NCBI GenBank assembly: GCA_903927345.1
Contig: CAIYMO010000042.1
Span: forward strand, 1-64,000
Reading direction: 5' to 3'
Source of the DNA: an uncultured Armatimonadota bacterium
GTDB taxonomy: Bacteria; Armatimonadota; Fimbriimonadia; Fimbriimonadales; Fimbriimonadaceae
Length of the DNA: 64,000 nt
Made by a program: the position numbers and the translations under genes. Below the pieces are notes generated by a model. The model was not told the DNA's origin and did no database searches. It was given only the letters and a program-made list of their open reading frames with translations. Positions 12,004-40,582 of the stretch are shown one piece after another (within the stretch, counting starts at the first letter, position 1; the number at the start of each line of letters is the position of its first letter).

Positions 12004-13661
12004 TCTCAGAGCTCAGAGTCGAGAACCTAGCGATTATTCATCACGTTGAACTCAGTTTCAACGGAGGATTTTCTGTGCTTACTGGCGAGACTGGTGCGGG
12101 AAAGTCGTTGATGATCGACGCCCTTGAGCTTGCGTTGGGAGAGCGCGCAGATACCGATCTCGTGCGCACTGGTGCCCCAAAGGCGTCCGTGCAGCTTGTA
12201 CTTGATCTTTCGGCTCGTCCCGATCTGTTGAACCCGCTGAGCGAGCTCGGCTTGGAGCTGGAGAACGGGCAGCTGTTCCTGCTTCGAGAGGTTTTCGCGG
12301 AGGGACGGTCGGTGGCAAGAGTCAACGGGCGAACGGTGCCCGTTTCCACACTAAAGGCGCTTGGGAAGATGATCGTCGATTTGCACGGTCAGCATCAGCA
12401 CCAAGCATTGCTGGATCCCTTGACTCACGTTGGGTATCTGGATCAATGGATTGGGGAAGAGGCTGAAGTGGCGTTGTCGCTCGTCGATTCGACTTACTCG
12501 GCTTACGCCCAAGTGCGCGAGCGGATGAACGCGCTCAAGCGTGGATTGCGAGAGCGTGAACAACGCTTGGACATTCTGCGATTCCAAGTCAGTGAGATTC
12601 GTTCGTTCTCGCCGGTAGAAGGAGAGGAGGAAGAGCTGACTGCGACGCTTTCTCGTTTAAAAAACCTTGAGCGCATCACGCAATCCGTTCGGACGGCACT
12701 GGCGGCACTGAGCGAGGGTGAGGTTAATGCTCGCGATATGCTTGGGAGTGGCTCTTCGGCGGTATCAGATGCGCTTCGGTTTGACCCGTCGCTGGAAGCG
12801 ATTAGTGCGGGGATTGAGTCGGCGGTTGTGAATCTCGACGAATCCGTGCATGCGCTCTCAGACTACGTTGAACGCTTGGATGCCGACCCGACGCTATTGG
12901 ACATCACTACTGAGCGACTCGATGGGCTACGCCGGCTCAAGAGGAAGTACGGAGAGACCGAGGCAGCAGTTCTGGCGTTTTGTTTGACTGCCGAATCTGA
13001 ACTCGCGACTCTCGAAGACGCGGAAGCGAGTGAAGAATCGCTTGGTCAGCAGCTTTCTGCGGCAGAGGAAGCACTGACGGGTGCTTGTGCAAAGCTAACG
13101 CAGGTTCGGCGGTCGAAGGCTGATGCGTTTGTTACATCCGTCCGACAGCACCTTGACGATCTGTCGATGGGCAAGGCTCGGTTGGAGGTTTCGATCAAGC
13201 CGAGTGAGCCGACTTCTGTGGGCGCGGATAACGTTGAATTTCTGTTCTCCGCCAATGCCGGGGAGCCACCTAAACCGTTGGCAAAGATTGCTTCCGGAGG
13301 AGAGGTTTCTCGAGTCATGCTCGCGCTTAAGAGCGCTCTCGCTGGTCGCGCAGGAGTGCCGACATTATTGTTCGACGAAGTGGACACTGGGCTTGGCGGA
13401 AAGGCGGCGGCGGCTGTGGGTCGAAAGCTTGCCAACCTTGGGGCATTCTATCAAGTGATCGCCATTAGCCACCTGCCGCAGGTCGCGGCTTGCGCGGCGC
13501 ACCAGTACCGCATCGAAAAGCGGGAAGAAGCGGGTCGCTCGCAGACCTCGGTCGTTCCCCTATCTCAGGATGATCGGGTTGAAGAGATTGCCCGGATGCT
13601 GGCGGGTGATCAGGTGACGGAGATCGCTATGGCGAATGCTCGAGAGCTTTTGGGATGCTGA
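12000..13661 (+). CDS. recN: DNA repair protein RecN
   Basis: 553 residues, an SMC-like ATPase for double-strand-break repair. Walker A GETGAGKS is at 29-36; N-terminal RVENLAIIHHVEL is the family opening; HGQHQHQALLDP is the Q-loop-side motif; a coiled-coil pair covers about 150-360; the signature ASGGEVSRVMLALK and Walker B TLLFDEVDTGLGG lie near the C-terminus, followed by ISHLPQVAACA. ATP-driven tethering of DNA ends in the cytosol is the known role. ATG is within the ATGA overlap with the HTTM gene. No LexA-like site was recognised upstream. Confidence 0.96.
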   Translation: MISELRVENLAIIHHVELSFNGGFSVLTGETGAGKSLMIDALELALGERADTDLVRTGAPKASVQLVLDLSARPDLLNPLSELGLELENGQLFLLREVFAEGRSVARVNGRTVPVSTLKALGKMIVDLHGQHQHQALLDPLTHVGYLDQWIGEEAEVALSLVDSTYSAYAQVRERMNALKRGLREREQRLDILRFQVSEIRSFSPVEGEEEELTATLSRLKNLERITQSVRTALAALSEGEVNARDMLGSGSSAVSDALRFDPSLEAISAGIESAVVNLDESVHALSDYVERLDADPTLLDITTERLDGLRRLKRKYGETEAAVLAFCLTAESELATLEDAEASEESLGQQLSAAEEALTGACAKLTQVRRSKADAFVTSVRQHLDDLSMGKARLEVSIKPSEPTSVGADNVEFLFSANAGEPPKPLAKIASGGEVSRVMLALKSALAGRAGVPTLLFDEVDTGLGGKAAAAVGRKLANLGAFYQVIAISHLPQVAACAAHQYRIEKREEAGRSQTSVVPLSQDDRVEEIARMLAGDQVTEIAMANARELLGC

Positions 13662-13897
13662 TTGACCTGTGTGTAACCCTTAGCATTGGGCTGATTCTTC
13701 TCATCATTTTTCGCGCGTTGGGATACCTAAAGGCCACTCCTGGATCCTTGCCGGAGCACTTGAAGTCAATCGAATTGACGGACCAGGAGAAGGCAAAAGC
13801 ACAAGACCAACCTCTTCAGGTGATCAAAGCCGTCAGAGAACGAACAGGTCTCGGATTACGCGATGCCAAAGCGCTCGTTGACCAGCATCGGCACTAA
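13655..13897 (+). CDS. Small membrane protein with ribosomal L7/L12 C-terminal-like domain
   Basis: 80 residues: an N-terminal membrane helix (about 4-22), a linker, and a C-terminal segment VIKAVRERTGLGLRDAKALV that closely resembles the L7/L12 C-terminal domain (VIKxVRxITGLGLKEAKxLV). In L7/L12 this helix pair docks translation GTPases. Anchored to the membrane it is probably an adaptor, but nothing more can be said. The ATG overlaps the last 7 bases of recN, so it is translated with it. Similar short 'L7/L12 CTD' proteins occur in many bacteria without known function. Confidence 0.7.
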   Translation: MLIDLCVTLSIGLILLIIFRALGYLKATPGSLPEHLKSIELTDQEKAKAQDQPLQVIKAVRERTGLGLRDAKALVDQHRH

Positions 13898-33285: not shown

Positions 33286-34017
33286 TTACCGGGTTCCGGG
33301 AAAGTTCTTATCCGCGGCTCGCATCAGTTCTTCTTGGGTTCTTTGGCCGAGCATGACGACGGACTGACCGTTGACCTCGAAGGCGATTGCGTTCTGTTTG
33401 GACAGAGTTTCTCCGGCTGAGTAGCGGGTTCCGGCGACTTGCTCGAGGTTCTCGAACTTGGCGACGGTTGGGAAAATCAGCATTTGGATCGGACCGGTGG
33501 CGTCTTTGACGAGAAGCGATGCGGCGAGTTGACCCTCGACAACGACTTCTCTACCGCTGAGGATTTGGAGGCGAGAGAGGTTGGCATCGACGCGACTGAG
33601 GACATCGGAGGAAATTGCTTCGGAGAGGGCTTTTTCGGGTGAGACGTGGCTGCTCTTTCCGACGAATCCGGCGAGGGCGCCGGTGGAGATTGACGACTGT
33701 TGCACTTGTCGCGAAAGGGTTCCGCCGACGATGACGATCATGGCGACGCCGAGGGCGAAGGCCCAGGAGTGCTTGGAGATAAAGTTACCGCTTCGCTCGA
33801 CGCGCTCGATTTCTTTGAGTCGCGCTTGGCAGGCAGCCCACGTTTTGTCGCAGGTTTGGGCGTCGAGTCGTCCTTTGAGAACGGTTTTGACGGACTGGAT
33901 TGCGGCAAGCTCTTCACGGCTTGATTGGCAGGTGGCTAGCGTCGCTTCGACTTCTTTTCTCTCTCTGTCGCTCAGCTCTCCGTCTAGATATGAATGCAAG
34001 TTTAATGGGTCGATCAC
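33286..34017 (-). CDS. Membrane anti-sigma factor (degenerate zinc-finger type)
   Basis: 243 residues. The cytoplasmic N-terminus shows the anti-sigma opening LHSYLDGELSDRERKEVEATLATC but has only one Cys of the H-x3-C-x2-C motif (the second is Ser), so zinc binding is doubtful. A single TM helix lies near 84-103, followed by about 140 residues outside that resemble a MucB/RseB-like or lipoprotein-sorting beta half-barrel (LKxGREVVVEGQLAASLLV). Its ATG overlaps the upstream sigma-factor gene's stop by 4 bases, the usual arrangement for a cognate pair. Confidence 0.8.
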   Translation of the reverse strand: MIDPLNLHSYLDGELSDRERKEVEATLATCQSSREELAAIQSVKTVLKGRLDAQTCDKTWAACQARLKEIERVERSGNFISKHSWAFALGVAMIVIVGGTLSRQVQQSSISTGALAGFVGKSSHVSPEKALSEAISSDVLSRVDANLSRLQILSGREVVVEGQLAASLLVKDATGPIQMLIFPTVAKFENLEQVAGTRYSAGETLSKQNAIAFEVNGQSVVMLGQRTQEELMRAADKNFPGTR

Positions 34018-34658
34018 AGATCTTCGCCTTCCTTAATAAATCCCTCTTTGAGGGCATAGCTTTCGAGCGAGCGGCGGAGCATAGCTCGCCCTCGCGCAAT
34101 TCGAGATCGTACCGTGCCGATCGGCACTCCTGTCGCTTCGGCAATCTCTTGGTAGCTCATTTCTTCGACATCGCTGAGGATGACGGCGAGGCGGAATTCG
34201 TCGGGCACTCTTTTGAGGGCTTGTTCGACTTCGGCTCCGACGAGGCCGTCGAAGAGTTGGCGATCAGGGATTTGCGATTCGGTTGACATTGGCTCGGCGA
34301 CGTTTTCGTCTTCGAGCGATGCCATCATCGGTCCGCGTTGGCGGGAACGGTACTTGTTGATGTAGAGATTCGTGGTGATCCTGAGGATCCACGCTTTGAA
34401 ATTGGTTCCGTCGAAGCGGTCGTAGGCTTCGTAGGCTCTGACGATGGCTTCTTGGGCGAGGTCTTCGGCTTCTTCGCGGCTTCGGGTGAGGCGGAGGGCA
34501 GTTCCGAAGACGGAGCTGAACACTCGCTCGGCTTGCTGCTCAAACGAGTCCTTTTTGTAGTCTCGGCGCCCGAAGAGCATGGCTCGTCCGATTCTACCTT
34601 TCCCTTCCGCATCCTCTCGGATGGGAGCCTTGATCGACAAACTAATTCCCAGAGCCAT
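34014..34658 (-). CDS. ECF RNA polymerase sigma factor
   Basis: 214 residues. Region 2 covers FGTALRLTRSREEAEDLAQEAIVRAYEAYDRF-type sequence (about 52-82) and region 4 the YQEIAEATGVPIGTVRSRIARGRAML helix-turn-helix (about 168-193). ECF sigma factors redirect RNA polymerase to stress genes. It is directly coupled to the membrane anti-sigma gene. The N-terminal 26 residues have no matching family motif and an internal ATG at 34580 is an alternative start. Confidence 0.9.
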   Translation of the reverse strand: MALGISLSIKAPIREDAEGKGRIGRAMLFGRRDYKKDSFEQQAERVFSSVFGTALRLTRSREEAEDLAQEAIVRAYEAYDRFDGTNFKAWILRITTNLYINKYRSRQRGPMMASLEDENVAEPMSTESQIPDRQLFDGLVGAEVEQALKRVPDEFRLAVILSDVEEMSYQEIAEATGVPIGTVRSRIARGRAMLRRSLESYALKEGFIKEGEDL

Positions 34659-34759
34659 CCCTTATGAACCTCTGTGCGGTTTCAACAGCCCTTAGCTTGG
34701 GTTGGTTCCTGGTTTGTTGCTGGGTTTTGTTGGGCAGTGGGGGGCAGTGGGTCGTGGAG

Positions 34760-34776
34760 TGGGCGTAATGGGCGCG
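34760..34776 (+). repeat. TGGGCG-pair repeat copy 1
   Basis: TGGGCGTAATGGGCGCG. The same pattern TGGGCG-N3-TGGGCG occurs at 34811-34830 and 40605-40622, each time in intergenic sequence. Confidence 0.35.
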
Positions 34777-34810
34777 TTAGGTTCAAATGGTTTTGGAATT
34801 TGGTCACAAG

Positions 34811-34830
34811 TGGGCGCGAATGGGCGCGGG
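34811..34830 (+). repeat. TGGGCG-pair repeat copy 2
   Basis: TGGGCGCG-A-ATGGGCGCGGG; matches copy 1 except in the N3 spacer. Role unknown. Confidence 0.35.
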
Positions 34831-34990
34831 GTTTGCTGTTGGGTACGTGAGGGTTTCGGCATCACTTACTAGGCTACGTTTTGGGGTGTTTGTCAACCTT
34901 GGTGTCGCAGCATTTCCCGCCAGCCCATCGCCACACACAACCCAAAGTCTCGCCTAGGACAGTGGCTTGCAGCTAAGAGTAAGTTTTTTT

Positions 34991-35021
34991 GATGCCTCGG
35001 GATTCTCAATCCCGCAGGCTA
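34991..35021 (+). repeat. REP palindrome R1, left of transposase
   Basis: Starts GATGCCTCGGGATT and ends CCCGCAGGCTA: hairpin arms GCCT-CGGGATT and AATCCCG-C-AGGC with one bulged base, 3-base loop. Its near-identical inverse is R2 at 35636-35666; a T-run outside it matches an A-run outside R2. Confidence 0.8.
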
Positions 35022-35027
35022 AGACGA

Positions 35028-35033
35028 TAGACT
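35028..35033 (+). promoter_or_regulatory. TAGACT -10 hexamer, RAYT gene
   Basis: TAGACT lies 7 bases before ATG 35041, a probable leaderless start, placed just inside REP R1. Confidence 0.45.
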
Positions 35034-35040
35034 TTCGGTC

Positions 35041-35604
35041 ATGACACCAGAGCCGCGGTACCGGCATTGGAAGAACACTCAAAATAAAGGGGCAACTTGT
35101 TTTGTGACGACGACCTGCCTCGACTTTGCACATCTTTTCAAGCGCGAAGAACTGCGGAGCGTGGTCGTGGAGAGCCTCGTTGCAGATGCGGTCTTCTACC
35201 GAGCGCACCTCCATGCGTTCGTGGTGATGACTCACCACTTCCACGCCTTGGTCACTCCTCACGAGGACTCGACGATCTCCGAGCTGATGAAAAGTTGGAA
35301 GCGTAACATCACCAAGAAGGTGAAACCCTTGCTAACCGAGTTCGAGTTTTCACAGCTTAAACAACAAGCGGGTCTGAACCGCTCCACGATTTGGAAAGGG
35401 TCGTTTAGGGGATTGGAGATTCGGACGGAAGATGTGTTCTGGCAGAAGGTTGAGTACATCCACATGAATCCGGTTCGAGGTGAACTGGCGGAGTGGCCGA
35501 GTTCTTACCTTTGGAGTTCGGCCTATTGGTATGAGCAAGAGATGCAGTTGGAAGGATTTGAGTTGGACTGCACTAGGATTTTAGCCTCGCTTCGCTCGGG
35601 CTAG
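35041..35604 (+). CDS. REP-associated tyrosine transposase (RAYT, Y1 HUH family)
   Basis: 187 residues. HUH motif is H66-F67-H68 in VVMTHHFHALV; the catalytic tyrosine is Tyr139 in QKVEYIHMNPVRGEL; the downstream SSYLWSSAYWY segment is typical of RAYT/IS200-like Transposase_17 proteins. RAYTs cut and join single-strand REP hairpins. The gene is flanked by REP palindromes whose inward TAG tetranucleotide resembles the recognised guide sequence. No TnpB or left-end/right-end IS605 structure was seen, so RAYT rather than IS605 is the call. It looks intact. Confidence 0.88.
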   Translation: MTPEPRYRHWKNTQNKGATCFVTTTCLDFAHLFKREELRSVVVESLVADAVFYRAHLHAFVVMTHHFHALVTPHEDSTISELMKSWKRNITKKVKPLLTEFEFSQLKQQAGLNRSTIWKGSFRGLEIRTEDVFWQKVEYIHMNPVRGELAEWPSSYLWSSAYWYEQEMQLEGFELDCTRILASLRSG

Positions 35605-35635
35605 TGATTTCGGCTTGTTCGTAAGGCTGGAGTTT

Positions 35636-35666
35636 TAGCCTGCGGGATCAAGGATCCCGAGGCATC
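35636..35666 (-). repeat. REP palindrome R2, right of transposase
   Basis: Reads TAGCCTGCGGGAT... on the plus strand; its reverse complement matches R1 in 27 or so of 31 positions. Ends in GAGGCATC followed by an A-run. The inner flank AGTTTTAGCCT is shared with R4. Confidence 0.8.
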
Positions 35667-35741
35667 AAAAAAGGATCTACTCTGGTGCTAAGAAGCGCGC
35701 TTTCCATAATCTAATTAGGATCTTGGGATGGGGCTGAAGTC

Positions 35742-36284
35742 ATGACTAGAGTCAGGGTCAAGAAGGGTGATGTTTATGAGTGCAACACCGGAGGGAAGAA
35801 GTTCTGGATTCAATTTCTGGGCACTATCGACGAGGTTCTCCCGGGGGTACGAGTTTTCAGTTCTCCAGATCTATGGGAGGAGTCGATCATAAGGAAGATG
35901 TCTTTTGTCGGCATCTTGGCGGGTGTGAAAGACGGGAAGTGGGAGCGAGTTGCAACTGACTCTGACATCCTTGATCTCCCGGACGACCACTTGCAGACAA
36001 GAAGTTCTCAAGATGAAGGGGGACCATTCACTACTAACTGGATTCTGCGCAAGAACGGACAAAGCTTTGATCTTGGCGCCACTCTTCCTGAGGAGTACCT
36101 TGACTATCCTCTTGCGAGCGTTGTAACTTGGCAAACGCTCGAAGAGGATCTCGCGAACGGGACCGACCGAACCATCGCCCGAAACGTGATTGCTACGATT
36201 GAGCGAACGCGCGCGAACTGGGCGGAGATTTCGGCGGGGTTTAAGGCAGAGGCGGAGAAGCACGCCGGACGTAAGGGGAATTAG
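35742..36284 (+). CDS. Hypothetical protein
   Basis: 180 residues, no signal peptide and no TM segment. The sequence is mixed alpha/beta; I recognise no domain. N-terminal KKGDVYECNTGGKKFWIQFLGTI suggests a small beta-barrel (SH3-like), then an Asp/Gln-rich part and a C-terminal helix (ARNVIATIERTRANWAEI). It abuts the next gene (stop directly followed by its ATG), so the two form a unit, probably part of the accessory segment between the two REP pairs. No toxin-like or antitoxin-like motif is seen. Confidence 0.6.
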   Translation: MTRVRVKKGDVYECNTGGKKFWIQFLGTIDEVLPGVRVFSSPDLWEESIIRKMSFVGILAGVKDGKWERVATDSDILDLPDDHLQTRSSQDEGGPFTTNWILRKNGQSFDLGATLPEEYLDYPLASVVTWQTLEEDLANGTDRTIARNVIATIERTRANWAEISAGFKAEAEKHAGRKGN

Positions 36285-36914
36285 ATGGACCGCGAATTCG
36301 ATATGCGAAAGAGATCAGTGAAGATCCTCAAGTCATTGCGCATTCCAGACTTCACTACAAACGTGCCTCTCGCACCTGTTGAAGCACTGCGTACACGGCA
36401 CGAGGTCGCCCAGAGGCTGTTAGCCCTAAACGTTTGCGGTGCTCTTGGGCATGGATGTCCTAACGCTTTAGCGACAAAGTGGATAGAGTCAGAGGGGGGC
36501 TGGAATTGGTTTTCTCGCGAAGAGAGAGCATTTCTCGAGCGAGGGGTCGCGCCGCTCGACTTTACCTATTGCGTCCACGCGGCTTGGGCGATTGCATGGA
36601 TGCTGGAGTTGGTCGATGAGTTTCGTCCTGGGAAGTTGCCACCACAGACCCTCATTCGAGCGATGCCTGATATCGAAAAAGCTGGATCAAGCAAGTCATT
36701 CTTGAGCGCTCCAAAGCTCGCTGAGCGGCTGGAAATTTATCAGAAACTTGATGAGGTGCGATGTCTTCACGAATCCTTGAGGCATTGGCGAACAACTCCC
36801 GGACATCCAGGCGACATCACACGGCGGCTGATTACGGCGAAGTATCAGCGGCTACCATTCGAGTGGATCTGCTCCGGAATCGAGTGGGATGATCTCTCAG
36901 TTGCCATAACATAG
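36285..36914 (+). CDS. DUF4272-family protein
   Basis: 209 residues resembling DUF4272: an opening R-S-V-K-I-L-K-S-L-x-I-P, then RTRHEVAQRLLALNVCGALG and later FTYCVHAAWAIAWMLEL. Function of the family is unknown; it is often found near proteins of stress or polymorphic-toxin contexts. It starts immediately after the previous stop (no gap). Codon use and GC look similar to the neighbours. About 256 bases follow before the nuclease-like gene with no obvious site. Confidence 0.6.
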   Translation: MDREFDMRKRSVKILKSLRIPDFTTNVPLAPVEALRTRHEVAQRLLALNVCGALGHGCPNALATKWIESEGGWNWFSREERAFLERGVAPLDFTYCVHAAWAIAWMLELVDEFRPGKLPPQTLIRAMPDIEKAGSSKSFLSAPKLAERLEIYQKLDEVRCLHESLRHWRTTPGHPGDITRRLITAKYQRLPFEWICSGIEWDDLSVAIT

Positions 36915-37170
36915 TATGAGATTCCAGCCGAGAAGCAGTAGCTGCGCCCGGAGGGATTTCCACCTGCCCGGAGGAAGATGGGCGGGAGTTGGGGGCATTA
37001 ACGGGAGGCTGCTCACTGACAAGCTCGTTATCTAGTGGTCGGCAGTTCTCGGTGGTTGGTCGCTTGACCGTGCCACCCCGGATACTTCTCCATACCCCGC
37101 CCCAAGCAATAGGCTCGTCGCAACCATCTGGCATCCCATACCAGGTAGCTTTGTACGCAAGCCGGATCCG

Positions 37171-38130
37171 ATGAGTCGACCTAACCTTTTTAGATTTGCA
37201 ACTTCCGAGCTCTCTCAAGACGCGTTCTTCTGCTACCTTGCTAGTTGTGCAGAAGATTCCGTTTCCGACCTGACACTACGGAAAGAGGGACGAGAGTTTT
37301 TGCAACTGCTACTGAGCGGATCAAGAGTTGAGCTTCCTGACAGTATTCGATCTCTTCAAATCCGGAGGCAACTGAAGAACACCGACGTCGTTATCGAGAT
37401 TAACGACGATCTTGTTATTCTCATTGAGGATAAAGCGGGTTCGGCAGATCATTCAAATCAGTTGTTTCGATATCTAGAGGACATACGAACTTGCTACCCA
37501 GACCGCATGGTTGTTCCTGTCTATATCCAAACCTACCTGCAGTCAAACTTTGAATCGGTATCATCTGCCGGCTACGAGATTGTCGGACGATCCGAACTGT
37601 TAAAAACCCTGCGCAGAGACTCTGTTGACACGATCGTACGGCAGTTTTGGGAACACCTAGATCGGCTCAACCAGGATTACGAGTCTTATCGCTCCGGCAG
37701 TAATTGGTCTATTCGAGGTTGGGCTCAATACATTTCACGCGTAGCTGGGTCCCTAGAAGGTTGTCGCTGGCATCGGGTTTCTAATCCTCAAGGGGGATTC
37801 TTCGCCGCTTATTGGGGATGGACAGAAATCAGCTTTGGGAGCCTCTATCTTCAGCTTGGGGAAACAAGGCTTTCGCTTAGAATCGTCGCCAATGAAACAA
37901 CTACTCCAGACGACATTTGGGGGCTTTACCAGGACGCTCTTAGTTTCTCAGAGTGGGAAGTCCCAAAGCGCATGAAGCCTAAGAGCGGGAAAACGCAAAA
38001 CTTGATTAATCTGGAAATGGATCATCGCAGGTTTGATGCCGTGGGAAATATTCAAGTGGATGAGACCGTTTCTCTGTTACAGGAGTACACGCACAAGATG
38101 AAGAGATTCGCTGAATCCCTTGGTGGCTAG
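37171..38130 (+). CDS. PD-(D/E)XK nuclease-superfamily protein
   Basis: 319 residues. The N-terminus NLFRFATSELSQDAFFCYLASCAED is typical of the PDDEXK_4 family, with the core Asp72 (NTDVVIEI) and Glu86-Asp87-Lys88 in ILIEDKAGS, a full D...E-x-K-like site with the Lys present. Such proteins are often orphan nucleases in accessory or defence regions. No methylase or restriction-specificity gene is next to it. A perfect 8-bp hairpin follows at 38191-38211. The start ATG 37171 has no ribosome site; its promoter is not visible. Confidence 0.72.
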   Translation: MSRPNLFRFATSELSQDAFFCYLASCAEDSVSDLTLRKEGREFLQLLLSGSRVELPDSIRSLQIRRQLKNTDVVIEINDDLVILIEDKAGSADHSNQLFRYLEDIRTCYPDRMVVPVYIQTYLQSNFESVSSAGYEIVGRSELLKTLRRDSVDTIVRQFWEHLDRLNQDYESYRSGSNWSIRGWAQYISRVAGSLEGCRWHRVSNPQGGFFAAYWGWTEISFGSLYLQLGETRLSLRIVANETTTPDDIWGLYQDALSFSEWEVPKRMKPKSGKTQNLINLEMDHRRFDAVGNIQVDETVSLLQEYTHKMKRFAESLGG

Positions 38131-38190
38131 GCAGGGGCGGGGCGCACTAACAAGCAACACAGCCCCACCGGTTCGACCGAAGTCTCACCG

Positions 38191-38211
38191 ACTCCCCGAC
38201 GAGCGGGGAGT
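38191..38211 (+). terminator. Hairpin after the nuclease-like gene
   Basis: ACTCCCCG (38191-38198) pairs with CGGGGAGT (38204-38211) around a 5-base loop, followed by TTATATTG. It lies 61 bases after the nuclease stop and could end its transcript; the short T tract makes this uncertain. Confidence 0.35.
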
Positions 38212-38253
38212 TATATTGTGCCTCTGGATGCTCTGTCTGGGATTGGCGCTTGG

Positions 38254-39282
38254 TTACCACACCCAGACAGGGAATGCGTCTCCAAACGTGTTGTTCGTTA
38301 ATCTAGTCTGACTGGTGCCATCAGCGTTCATGATGTAGATTTGGTCGATTAATGTCGGTCGGCCACAATACACGATCTTTGTTCCATCAGACGACCAAGA
38401 GGGGCACTGGTCTGAGATCGCATTGTTCGTCAACCTCGTCTGTCCCGTGCCGTTGGCACTCATGGTGTAAATCTCCCAGTTGCCATCTCGATCGGACATG
38501 AAAGCGACTTTTGTGCCGTCGGGCGACATTTCACCGAGCTGATCATTTGTAGATGTATTCGAAAGGTTGACTTGATTAGAACCGTCAGCATTCATTGAAA
38601 AGACTTGCCACGTGCCCGTACGATTACTCGAAAAGATGATCTTGGAACCGTCTGTGGACCACTTTGGCCGATAGTTGAAAGATGCGTTATCGGTCAGTTT
38701 CACTTGGCCAGTGCCATCTGCGTTCATAACCATAATCTTGTTTCCACCATCACGTCCAGTTGTGAAGGCGATCTTTGTTCCGTCTGGAGACCACGCTGGG
38801 TTTCCGTCAAAGAGTAGATTATTCGTTAGCCTGGTTAATGCTGATCCATCTCGGTTCATCGAGTAAATCTCGGTGTCTCCGCTATCCCGATCAGTTTGAA
38901 ACGCAATTTTTTGTGCGGAGTGCGACCATTTAGGGTCCATATCCATCGCCGAATTGTTGGTTAGATTGACAGGAGTGGTTCCATCAGTGGACATTGAGTA
39001 GATTTCCCAATTCCCGTCTCGAACAGATTCAAAGCTGATTTGAGGCTGCGCGCCCCCGGTCGAAGTTGTTCCCGTCGAGGCCGTCGTCCCGGTTGTAGCA
39101 GTGGTGGAAGTTGATCCACCAGTTGCTGTTGTGCCTGTCGAAGCAGTTGCTCCAGTCGTGGCAGACGTCGTAGCACTCCCAGCCCCACCACTCCCACCGC
39201 AACCGATAATGACAAGCAGGAACAGCACCCAACCGATCCCGGACGATTGTCTGTGTCGAAAAAACTGTGTTGAGCGCTTCAT
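38254..39282 (-). CDS. TolB-like beta-propeller lipoprotein
   Basis: 342 residues. A lipoprotein signal ends VIIGC (Cys28). Residues about 35-76 are a low-complexity Thr/Gly/Ser/Ala linker. Then come six PD40/TolB-like blades, each with a core such as DGNWEIYSMSTDG and a WSxDGTKIAF strand (e.g. PAWSPDGTKIAFTTGRDGG). TolB-like propellers bind proteins or glycans at the outer membrane; the partner is unknown. TAAGGT lies 6 bases before the ATG. No gene is directly coupled to it. Confidence 0.82.
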   Translation of the reverse strand: MKRSTQFFRHRQSSGIGWVLFLLVIIGCGGSGGAGSATTSATTGATASTGTTATGGSTSTTATTGTTASTGTTSTGGAQPQISFESVRDGNWEIYSMSTDGTTPVNLTNNSAMDMDPKWSHSAQKIAFQTDRDSGDTEIYSMNRDGSALTRLTNNLLFDGNPAWSPDGTKIAFTTGRDGGNKIMVMNADGTGQVKLTDNASFNYRPKWSTDGSKIIFSSNRTGTWQVFSMNADGSNQVNLSNTSTNDQLGEMSPDGTKVAFMSDRDGNWEIYTMSANGTGQTRLTNNAISDQCPSWSSDGTKIVYCGRPTLIDQIYIMNADGTSQTRLTNNTFGDAFPVWVW

Positions 39283-39343
39283 TCGTTCACCTTACCTATT
39301 GTTGGTAACTTAAGGGACGCCATTCGGCATGCTGCATGGGGCT

Positions 39344-39442
39344 TTAGTTGACTCCAAACTCTTCGCACAGCGCATCTTCTAGGGCATCCTTCTGGGGATC
39401 GACTACGCCTTTGACTCCGGGGGCGGTGTAGTGGGCGACGAT
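39344..39442 (-). pseudogene. Remnant 3' end of an epimerase paralogue
   Basis: The last 32 codons and stop of a second copy of the neighbouring epimerase gene survive: IVAHYTAPGVKGVVDPQ and onwards match the intact gene in 29 of 32 residues. The rest of the copy is gone. The break lies at REP R3: the shared GCCTCGG occurs both at 39450-39456 and in the intact gene at 39710-39716. The remnant is not translated as a sensible protein. Confidence 0.7.
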
Positions 39443-39446
39443 TTTG

Positions 39447-39476
39447 GATGCCTCGGGATTCGCAATCCCGAGGCTA
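39447..39476 (+). repeat. REP palindrome R3
   Basis: GATGCCTCGGGATT... ending AGGCTA: perfect 11-bp arms (GCCTCGGGATT / AATCCCGAGGC) with a CGC loop. Same orientation as R1; it starts 4 bases after the epimerase remnant. Confidence 0.8.
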
Positions 39477-39561
39477 CATTCTTGACCTTGCGATCGCGCC
39501 CCCGATACGTTGTGCTCGCGAAGCAAGCAAGCTAGGCGGCATGTCTACAAGGTGTTAGTTT

Positions 39562-39591
39562 TAGCCTCGGGATCACGGATCCCGAGGCATC
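39562..39591 (-). repeat. REP palindrome R4
   Basis: TAGCCTCGGGAT-CACGG-ATCCCGAGGCATC: perfect 10-bp arms, inverted relative to R3. Confidence 0.8.
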
Positions 39592-39601
39592 GGGCATCTG
39601 G

Positions 39602-40582
39602 CTAATTGATTCCAAACTCCGCGCAGAGGGAGTCTTCTAGGGCGTCCTTTTGGGGGTCGACTACTCCTTTGACTCCGGGGGCGGTGTAGTGGGCTACGAT
39701 TTCTTGGGCGCCTCGGCTGAACGGGGTGGTGCAGACGAAGGCGGGGACGAGGGACTTGATCTTTGAGTTATCGAGGATGAAGCTGTTGGATTTGTCGCCG
39801 AGGAGGCCGGGGCCTCGGTTGGGGTCGCGGACGGCGAGGATGTCGGAGGGGACGTGGACTTTTTTGGCCTCGACTCCGGCGGCTTGGGCGACAATGTCGT
39901 AGATCTGGTTCCAGGTGAGCCATTCATCGCTGGTGATGTGGAACGCCTCGCCGATGGCGGCGGAGTGGCCCATGAGTCCGACGAAGCCTTTGGCGAAATC
40001 GGTGTGGTGGGTGAGGGTCCAGAGGCTAGTTCCGTCGCCGTGGACGACGACCGGCTTGCCTTTGATCATTCGGTCGAGGATGGTGTATCCGTAGTCGAAC
40101 GGGAGGAGGGTTTTGTCGTAGGTGTGCGACGGGCGCACGATGGTCATGGGGAATTTTTCGTCGCGGTACGCCCGGAGAAGGACCTCTTCGCAGGCGATTT
40201 TGTTGCGCGAGTATTCCCAGTAGGGGTTATCGAGCGGGGTGGATTCTCTTACCGGTAGCGAGGCTGGGGGGGTTTGGTAGGCGCTGGCGCTACTGATGAA
40301 GATGTATTGGTTGGTTTTGCCCCGGAAGAGTTCGATGTCGCGCTCGATTTGGCTGGGGACAAAGTTGATCCAGTTGACCACGACATCCCACTTGCGGTCG
40401 CCGAGGACCTTCTTGGCTTCTTCGGGGTTGTTGATGTCGCCATGGATGACTTCGACGCCGGGCGGAGTTGGGCGTGCGGATTTGCCCCGGTTTAGCAGCG
40501 TAAGCTCGATGCCCTGGTTCACGGCGAGCGGTGAGCACGCCGAGCTAATGATTCCAGTTCCGCCGATAAAGAGGGCTTTCAT
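39602..40582 (-). CDS. NAD-dependent epimerase/dehydratase (extended SDR)
   Basis: 326 residues. The cofactor motif GGTGIIS is at 7-13 and the catalytic Y124-x3-K128 (YSRNK) follows Ser98 in FISSASAY. It resembles the extended short-chain group of nucleotide-sugar or mRNA-binding-like epimerases, with a HHTDFAKGFVGLM segment. The substrate is unknown. It is the intact copy; a truncated paralogue sits past the REPIN. TAACGT lies 6 bases before the ATG. A TGGGCG-pair repeat lies just upstream at 40605. Confidence 0.85.
   Translation of the reverse strand: MKALFIGGTGIISSACSPLAVNQGIELTLLNRGKSARPTPPGVEVIHGDINNPEEAKKVLGDRKWDVVVNWINFVPSQIERDIELFRGKTNQYIFISSASAYQTPPASLPVRESTPLDNPYWEYSRNKIACEEVLLRAYRDEKFPMTIVRPSHTYDKTLLPFDYGYTILDRMIKGKPVVVHGDGTSLWTLTHHTDFAKGFVGLMGHSAAIGEAFHITSDEWLTWNQIYDIVAQAAGVEAKKVHVPSDILAVRDPNRGPGLLGDKSNSFILDNSKIKSLVPAFVCTTPFSRGAQEIVAHYTAPGVKGVVDPQKDALEDSLCAEFGIN

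Follow-up and report, generated by a model that had tools for sequence, protein, structure and literature searches.

An accessory-gene hot spot in the genome of an Armatimonadota bacterium appears to hold, beside its flanking epimerase gene, the end of a different version of that same gene. The explanation that we favor, with moderate confidence, is that two cargo haplotypes were joined at this hot spot by recombination in the flanking genes combined with a short-homology joint at a REPIN. The locus lies in a stretch of 64,000 nt (the 'window') on contig C42 of a draft genome (3.1 Mb, 57 contigs).

The right flank of the hot spot is an intact gene of the NAD-dependent epimerase/dehydratase family, resembling sugar-nucleotide epimerases (39602–40582, minus strand; 326 aa; PF01370, E 7e-21). 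The nearest relatives compared, genomes G015 and G018, have epimerases 95% and 94% identical to its product, respectively. The gene is followed by a REPIN (39447–39591, plus strand) and then by a remnant (39344–39444, minus strand), an in-frame tail in which the final 32 codons of a second epimerase allele are preserved together with its stop. This layout had been described correctly in an initial sequence-only reading, and its coordinates hold. We reproduced the identity of 29 of the 32 residues between the remnant and the end of the intact epimerase (IVAHYTAPGVKGVVDPQKDALEDALCEEFGVN-stop versus ...EDSLCAEFGIN-stop, E 3e-14). The nucleotide alignment that had been proposed as a check gave 87% identity of the two tails; the corresponding direct repeat (39345–39444 versus 39603–39702) is by far the longest in the window.

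The remnant is closer to the gene end of G015 (94% nucleotide identity) than to that of G018 (88%). Over 90 comparable bases, it differs from the G015 tail at 6 positions and from the G018 tail at 13, while the intact tail differs from the remnant at 11, from G015 at 13 and from G018 at 11. The intact and remnant tails appear not to be each other's closest relatives: with only five informative sites in all, four group the remnant with G015, one groups it with the intact tail and none supports the third grouping (bootstrap 0.92, 0.08 and 0.00, respectively). Third codon positions hold 11 of the 14 differences between the two tails of the window (p 0.0007), which indicates that both tails accumulated their differences while they belonged to functional genes. 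An old duplicate decaying in situ would show changes at all codon positions and greater divergence; the remnant does not, which argues that it evolved in a working gene. These patterns support the view that the remnant was once part of a complete, functional copy of the epimerase gene. For most of their divergence the two tails most likely belonged to separate lineages, each inside a working gene, and the remnant resembles a discarded end from another version of the gene more than what would be left of a tandem copy.

A tandem duplicate was the origin proposed in the sequence-only reading, with a subsequent microhomology-mediated deletion at a REP. Under this scenario the epimerase gene was duplicated in the lineage, both copies stayed functional for long and a deletion through GCCTCGG then removed most of one copy, from the REP end to codon ∼290; the same junction would be expected, as would coding constraint on both tails and GCCTCGG at both places. 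Yet each of the 14 carriers among the 20 genomes of the genus examined has a single full-length epimerase and none has two. The remnant groups with G015 and not with its intact neighbor, so the two copies are not the mutual closest relatives that tandem duplication predicts. The scenario also requires that a paralogue persisted for long and yet vanished without further trace. We consider it unlikely; a second allele arriving by recombination makes a lost two-copy ancestor unnecessary. What survives of the proposal is the origin of the remnant from a complete functional copy and the 7-bp microhomology at the REP; that this copy was a tandem paralogue within one genome is not supported. Of the two proposed steps, the duplication is probably mistaken and the microhomology probably correct. 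Specific support was lacking for the variant 'REP insertion into a shrinking paralogue'. Every relative examined is devoid of a REPIN at this epimerase gene, so that a tail beside a REP without a second copy was neither encountered nor contradicted.

At the junction between the remnant and REP R3 (39445–39456), the motif GCCTCGG is present at 39450–39456 in R3 and again at 39710–39716 in the intact gene; the break point of the remnant coincides with it. Runs of seven matching bases, at most 3 nt off register, occurred at 122 of 18,000 sampled window positions on both strands (p ∼0.007); the microhomology is suggestive, not overwhelming. Just before the junction the remnant is 2 nt shorter than the gene (GATTT-TGG versus GATTTCTTGG) and the GAT adjoining GCC is REP consensus; therefore, the crossover is bounded to ∼13 nt rather than placed at an exact point. 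A joint of this size bears on the notion of an assembly artefact, i.e. two strain variants of the region fused in the draft contig. Although two alleles side by side in a draft of 57 contigs could be read in this way, an overlap of 7–13 nt is far under usual assembly overlap lengths and the listed contamination is 0.05; we regard an artefact as highly improbable.

The REPIN consists of two inverted REPs, R3 and R4, which make up 30-nt arms (39447–39476 and 39562–39591, 90% complementary) separated by 85 nt. Its 145-nt strand is predicted to fold into one long hairpin (z −7.5 against shuffled sequences). A REP-RAYT-REP unit is located in the cargo at 34991–35666 (plus strand); the ORF of the RAYT (REP-associated tyrosine transposase) at 35041–35604 matches NF047646 above cut-off and has a REP on either side, at 34991 and 35638. 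R3 is similar to the left of these two and R4 to the right, so the REPIN appears to be a miniature version of the unit. The tag in six aligned REPs is GATG, so that, strictly speaking, the element falls outside the GTAG family of REPs; degenerate tags occur in some REP families (PMC3733652). We counted nine REP sites in this genome, eight in G015 and three in G018 (none with reversed-pattern controls); besides the RAYT unit, this genome has one doublet.

With the RAYT unit and its matching REP ends only 4 kb away, one may ask if REPIN transposition split the resident gene at around codon 290, after which a complete foreign gene replaced the 5′ part. Such a history takes two independent events. 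From the biology of IS200/IS605, insertion beside a REP tag would be expected to leave GATG at the break point of the gene, where it is absent, and the duplicated gene end is missing at the other REPs of the genome; we assign this possibility a very small weight. At other REP loci in four genomes (G000, G015, G016 and G018), the search for flanking duplications yielded only dispersed or internal gene repeats; thus REPIN insertion does not generally give rise to this arrangement. Another scenario would have replication slippage or template switching at the hairpin re-copy the gene end in situ, with the intact tail later overwritten by a foreign allele. The REPIN hairpin is indeed very stable, the duplicated end begins at the microhomology, the epimerase gene does recombine and P. 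fluorescens is known to have tandem clusters of REPINs together with flanks (PMC3116915). Still, two events are again needed, a second REPIN copy is absent after the remnant and the remnant has hardly any noncoding decay when compared with G015, though the copies differ by 12%. We find this scenario quite doubtful.

A second dispersed repeat of ∼100–140 bp, with the core GTGGGCGGGGTAAGCAG, is present in all three hot spots (window 36954–37120; L118:8012–8136; L117:12245–12369, 12479–12603 and 13729–13827, L117 being the hot spot locus of G018). At G018:C1:182840–183247 it is inverted around a RAYT, and a different RAYT family probably has it as its long terminal repeat. Locus L139 (G015:C20, ∼235.3–236.4 kb) is a cassette-like array: its ORFs are small and unrelated, and behind each one stand the second repeat and a REP.

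The preferred explanation, a joining of two haplotypes, calls for flanks that recombine. The central ∼170 codons of the epimerase gene are ∼97% identical across the three species, while the surrounding DNA is ∼77% identical. In 36-codon blocks compared with G015, codons 1–144 are 12–18% different, codons 145–288 are 1–5% different and the last 36 codons are 12% different; the G018 pattern is alike, except that codons 109–144 are already 94% identical. Synonymous differences from G015 amount to 6 of 140 in codons 145–288 and to about a third in codons 1–144. The clustering of differing codons was reached in none of 2000 shuffles, either for the window against G015 or for the window against G018. 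Judged by these comparisons, the gene is clearly a mosaic with recombination between species; the near-identical tract shared with G015 and G018 (39668–40168, minus strand, codons ∼139–305) is a recombination tract. Constraint on the central codons was rejected as a cause of the identity, given that about half of the synonymous codons in this part are different in more distant relatives. Relatives of the epimerase with 56–71% identity were found in Chloroflexota, Armatimonadota, Actinomycetota, Bacteroidota and other phyla, and this spread suggests frequent transfer.

The left flank of the hot spot, a sigma-factor gene (34017–34658, minus strand), behaves alike. Over 46 kb of synteny with a mean identity of 0.76–0.77, identity is greatest at two peaks, one in the sigma gene (0.93, at 34.0–34.7 kb) and one in the epimerase gene (0.97). 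Synonymous difference is 0.18–0.20 for the sigma gene and 0.17–0.20 for the epimerase gene; other real genes show mostly 0.4–0.6 (lowest 0.32). Both of these genes border the cargo, and they are the only real genes in the 46 kb near 0.2; other low values came from shadow ORFs on the opposite strand. In more distant relatives, the sigma–epimerase arrangement was not conserved within the flanks examined.

The three species share these flanking core genes, which recombine more than other genes, and carry different cargo between them. The variable region (34730–39343; 4.6 kb, 34.73–39.35 kb) is unrelated in G015 and G018 save for short repeats. In the window it includes the RAYT unit, a DUF4272 protein, a PD-(D/E)XK nuclease-family protein (37171–38130, plus strand; weak similarity to the candidate defence family PDC-S26) and a PD40 beta-propeller lipoprotein-like gene (38254–39282, minus strand), which lies directly downstream of the remnant and has no close relative in the genus. 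The cargo of G015 contains, among others, a protein with an AbiJ N-terminal domain (candidate defence family PDC-S32), and that of G018 contains, again among others, a PDC-M65B-like protein. We also weighed site-specific integration at the end of the gene and rejected it, as the search of cargo ORFs gave no integrase-like family.

Epimerase C termini vary by haplotype (GIN, GVN, GVKVS or AS), which fits tail and cargo travelling together. The hot spot of G018 holds a piece of the sigma gene as well (L117:13625–13735; an N-terminal piece of 37 residues, 51% identical, E 2e-9). Situated 0.6 kb outside the intact sigma gene and in the same direction, it is more decayed than the epimerase remnant, and on the opposite flank it is the mirror image of that remnant.

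We propose that cargo was swapped between related species via homologous recombination in the sigma and epimerase flanks, with the 3′ end of the epimerase gene carried along with the adjoining cargo. One haplotype would have had a complete epimerase gene with the REPIN behind it, and the other the remnant-type tail with the PD40 gene behind it. On one side, the incoming DNA would have used ordinary homology in or near the epimerase gene; on the other side, the REP end would have been joined through GCCTCGG to codon ∼290 of the other allele, leaving the duplicate tail. The recombination tracts in the epimerase gene are clear and may stem from the same event as the REP joint. A single event is what we infer, and the same applies to its direction (which tail is native), its date and the route of DNA entry; among competence genes, DprA was above its family cut-off, while the matches to ComEC were weak and below cut-off. 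A donor haplotype for the remnant with its downstream flank (39282–39446), or for the PD40 gene, was absent from the 101 and 20 genomes searched. No other locus turned up with a remnant-type tail beside the PD40 gene or with an intact-type tail followed by the REPIN; thus the join was not caught in the act. A broader idea, to which we give little credence, is that REP and REPIN ends may be preferred landing points that join incoming DNA without long homology, so that haplotypes would stack at hot-spot borders and stranded gene ends would record each exchange.

The arrangement has counterparts among known systems. The proposed mechanism resembles homology-facilitated illegitimate recombination (HFIR; PMC3240628 and references there), in which one homologous side and one joint with, typically, 3–10 bp of microhomology couple insertion to deletion. 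The present locus has 7 bp (GCCTCGG) at one joint, and the joined DNA seems to come from another lineage, as the tails are not sisters by the five-site bootstrap; unlike HFIR, it was reconstructed from sequence only and its microhomology is at a REP end. HFIR further entails a dependence on RecA and the uptake of linear DNA. The hot spots of Oliveira et al. 2017 (PMC5635113) likewise show cargo turnover between two conserved, more-recombining genes with no integrase found in the cargo, whereas here the turnover extends across three species, not within one, and a duplicate tail is stranded beside a REPIN on one flank. In the sequential displacement arrays of Vibrio cholerae type VI clusters and in orphan 3′ ends of Rhs genes (Kirchberger et al. 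2017, PMC5361080), too, a module enters via a conserved upstream anchor and the old gene end is pushed downstream; the piece displaced here, however, comes from the anchor gene, whose own end it is, and is without evident function. Like described REPINs and RAYTs (PMC3116915, PMC3733652), the element is an inverted REP doublet near a RAYT unit that has these REPs at both ends, though it differs from them in its GATG tag in place of GTAG and in its tiny population.

The scar is real and informative, and its mechanism is of an ordinary, already known kind. Its readable structure distinguishes a foreign allele joined at a repeat from a decayed paralogue. A gene tail found beside a REP should therefore be tested for allele origin before duplication is assumed. 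For the Armatimonadota, a poorly studied phylum, the locus presents a hot spot with partly defence-like cargo, in which no integrase was found, and with flanking genes traded between species ∼23% apart in DNA.
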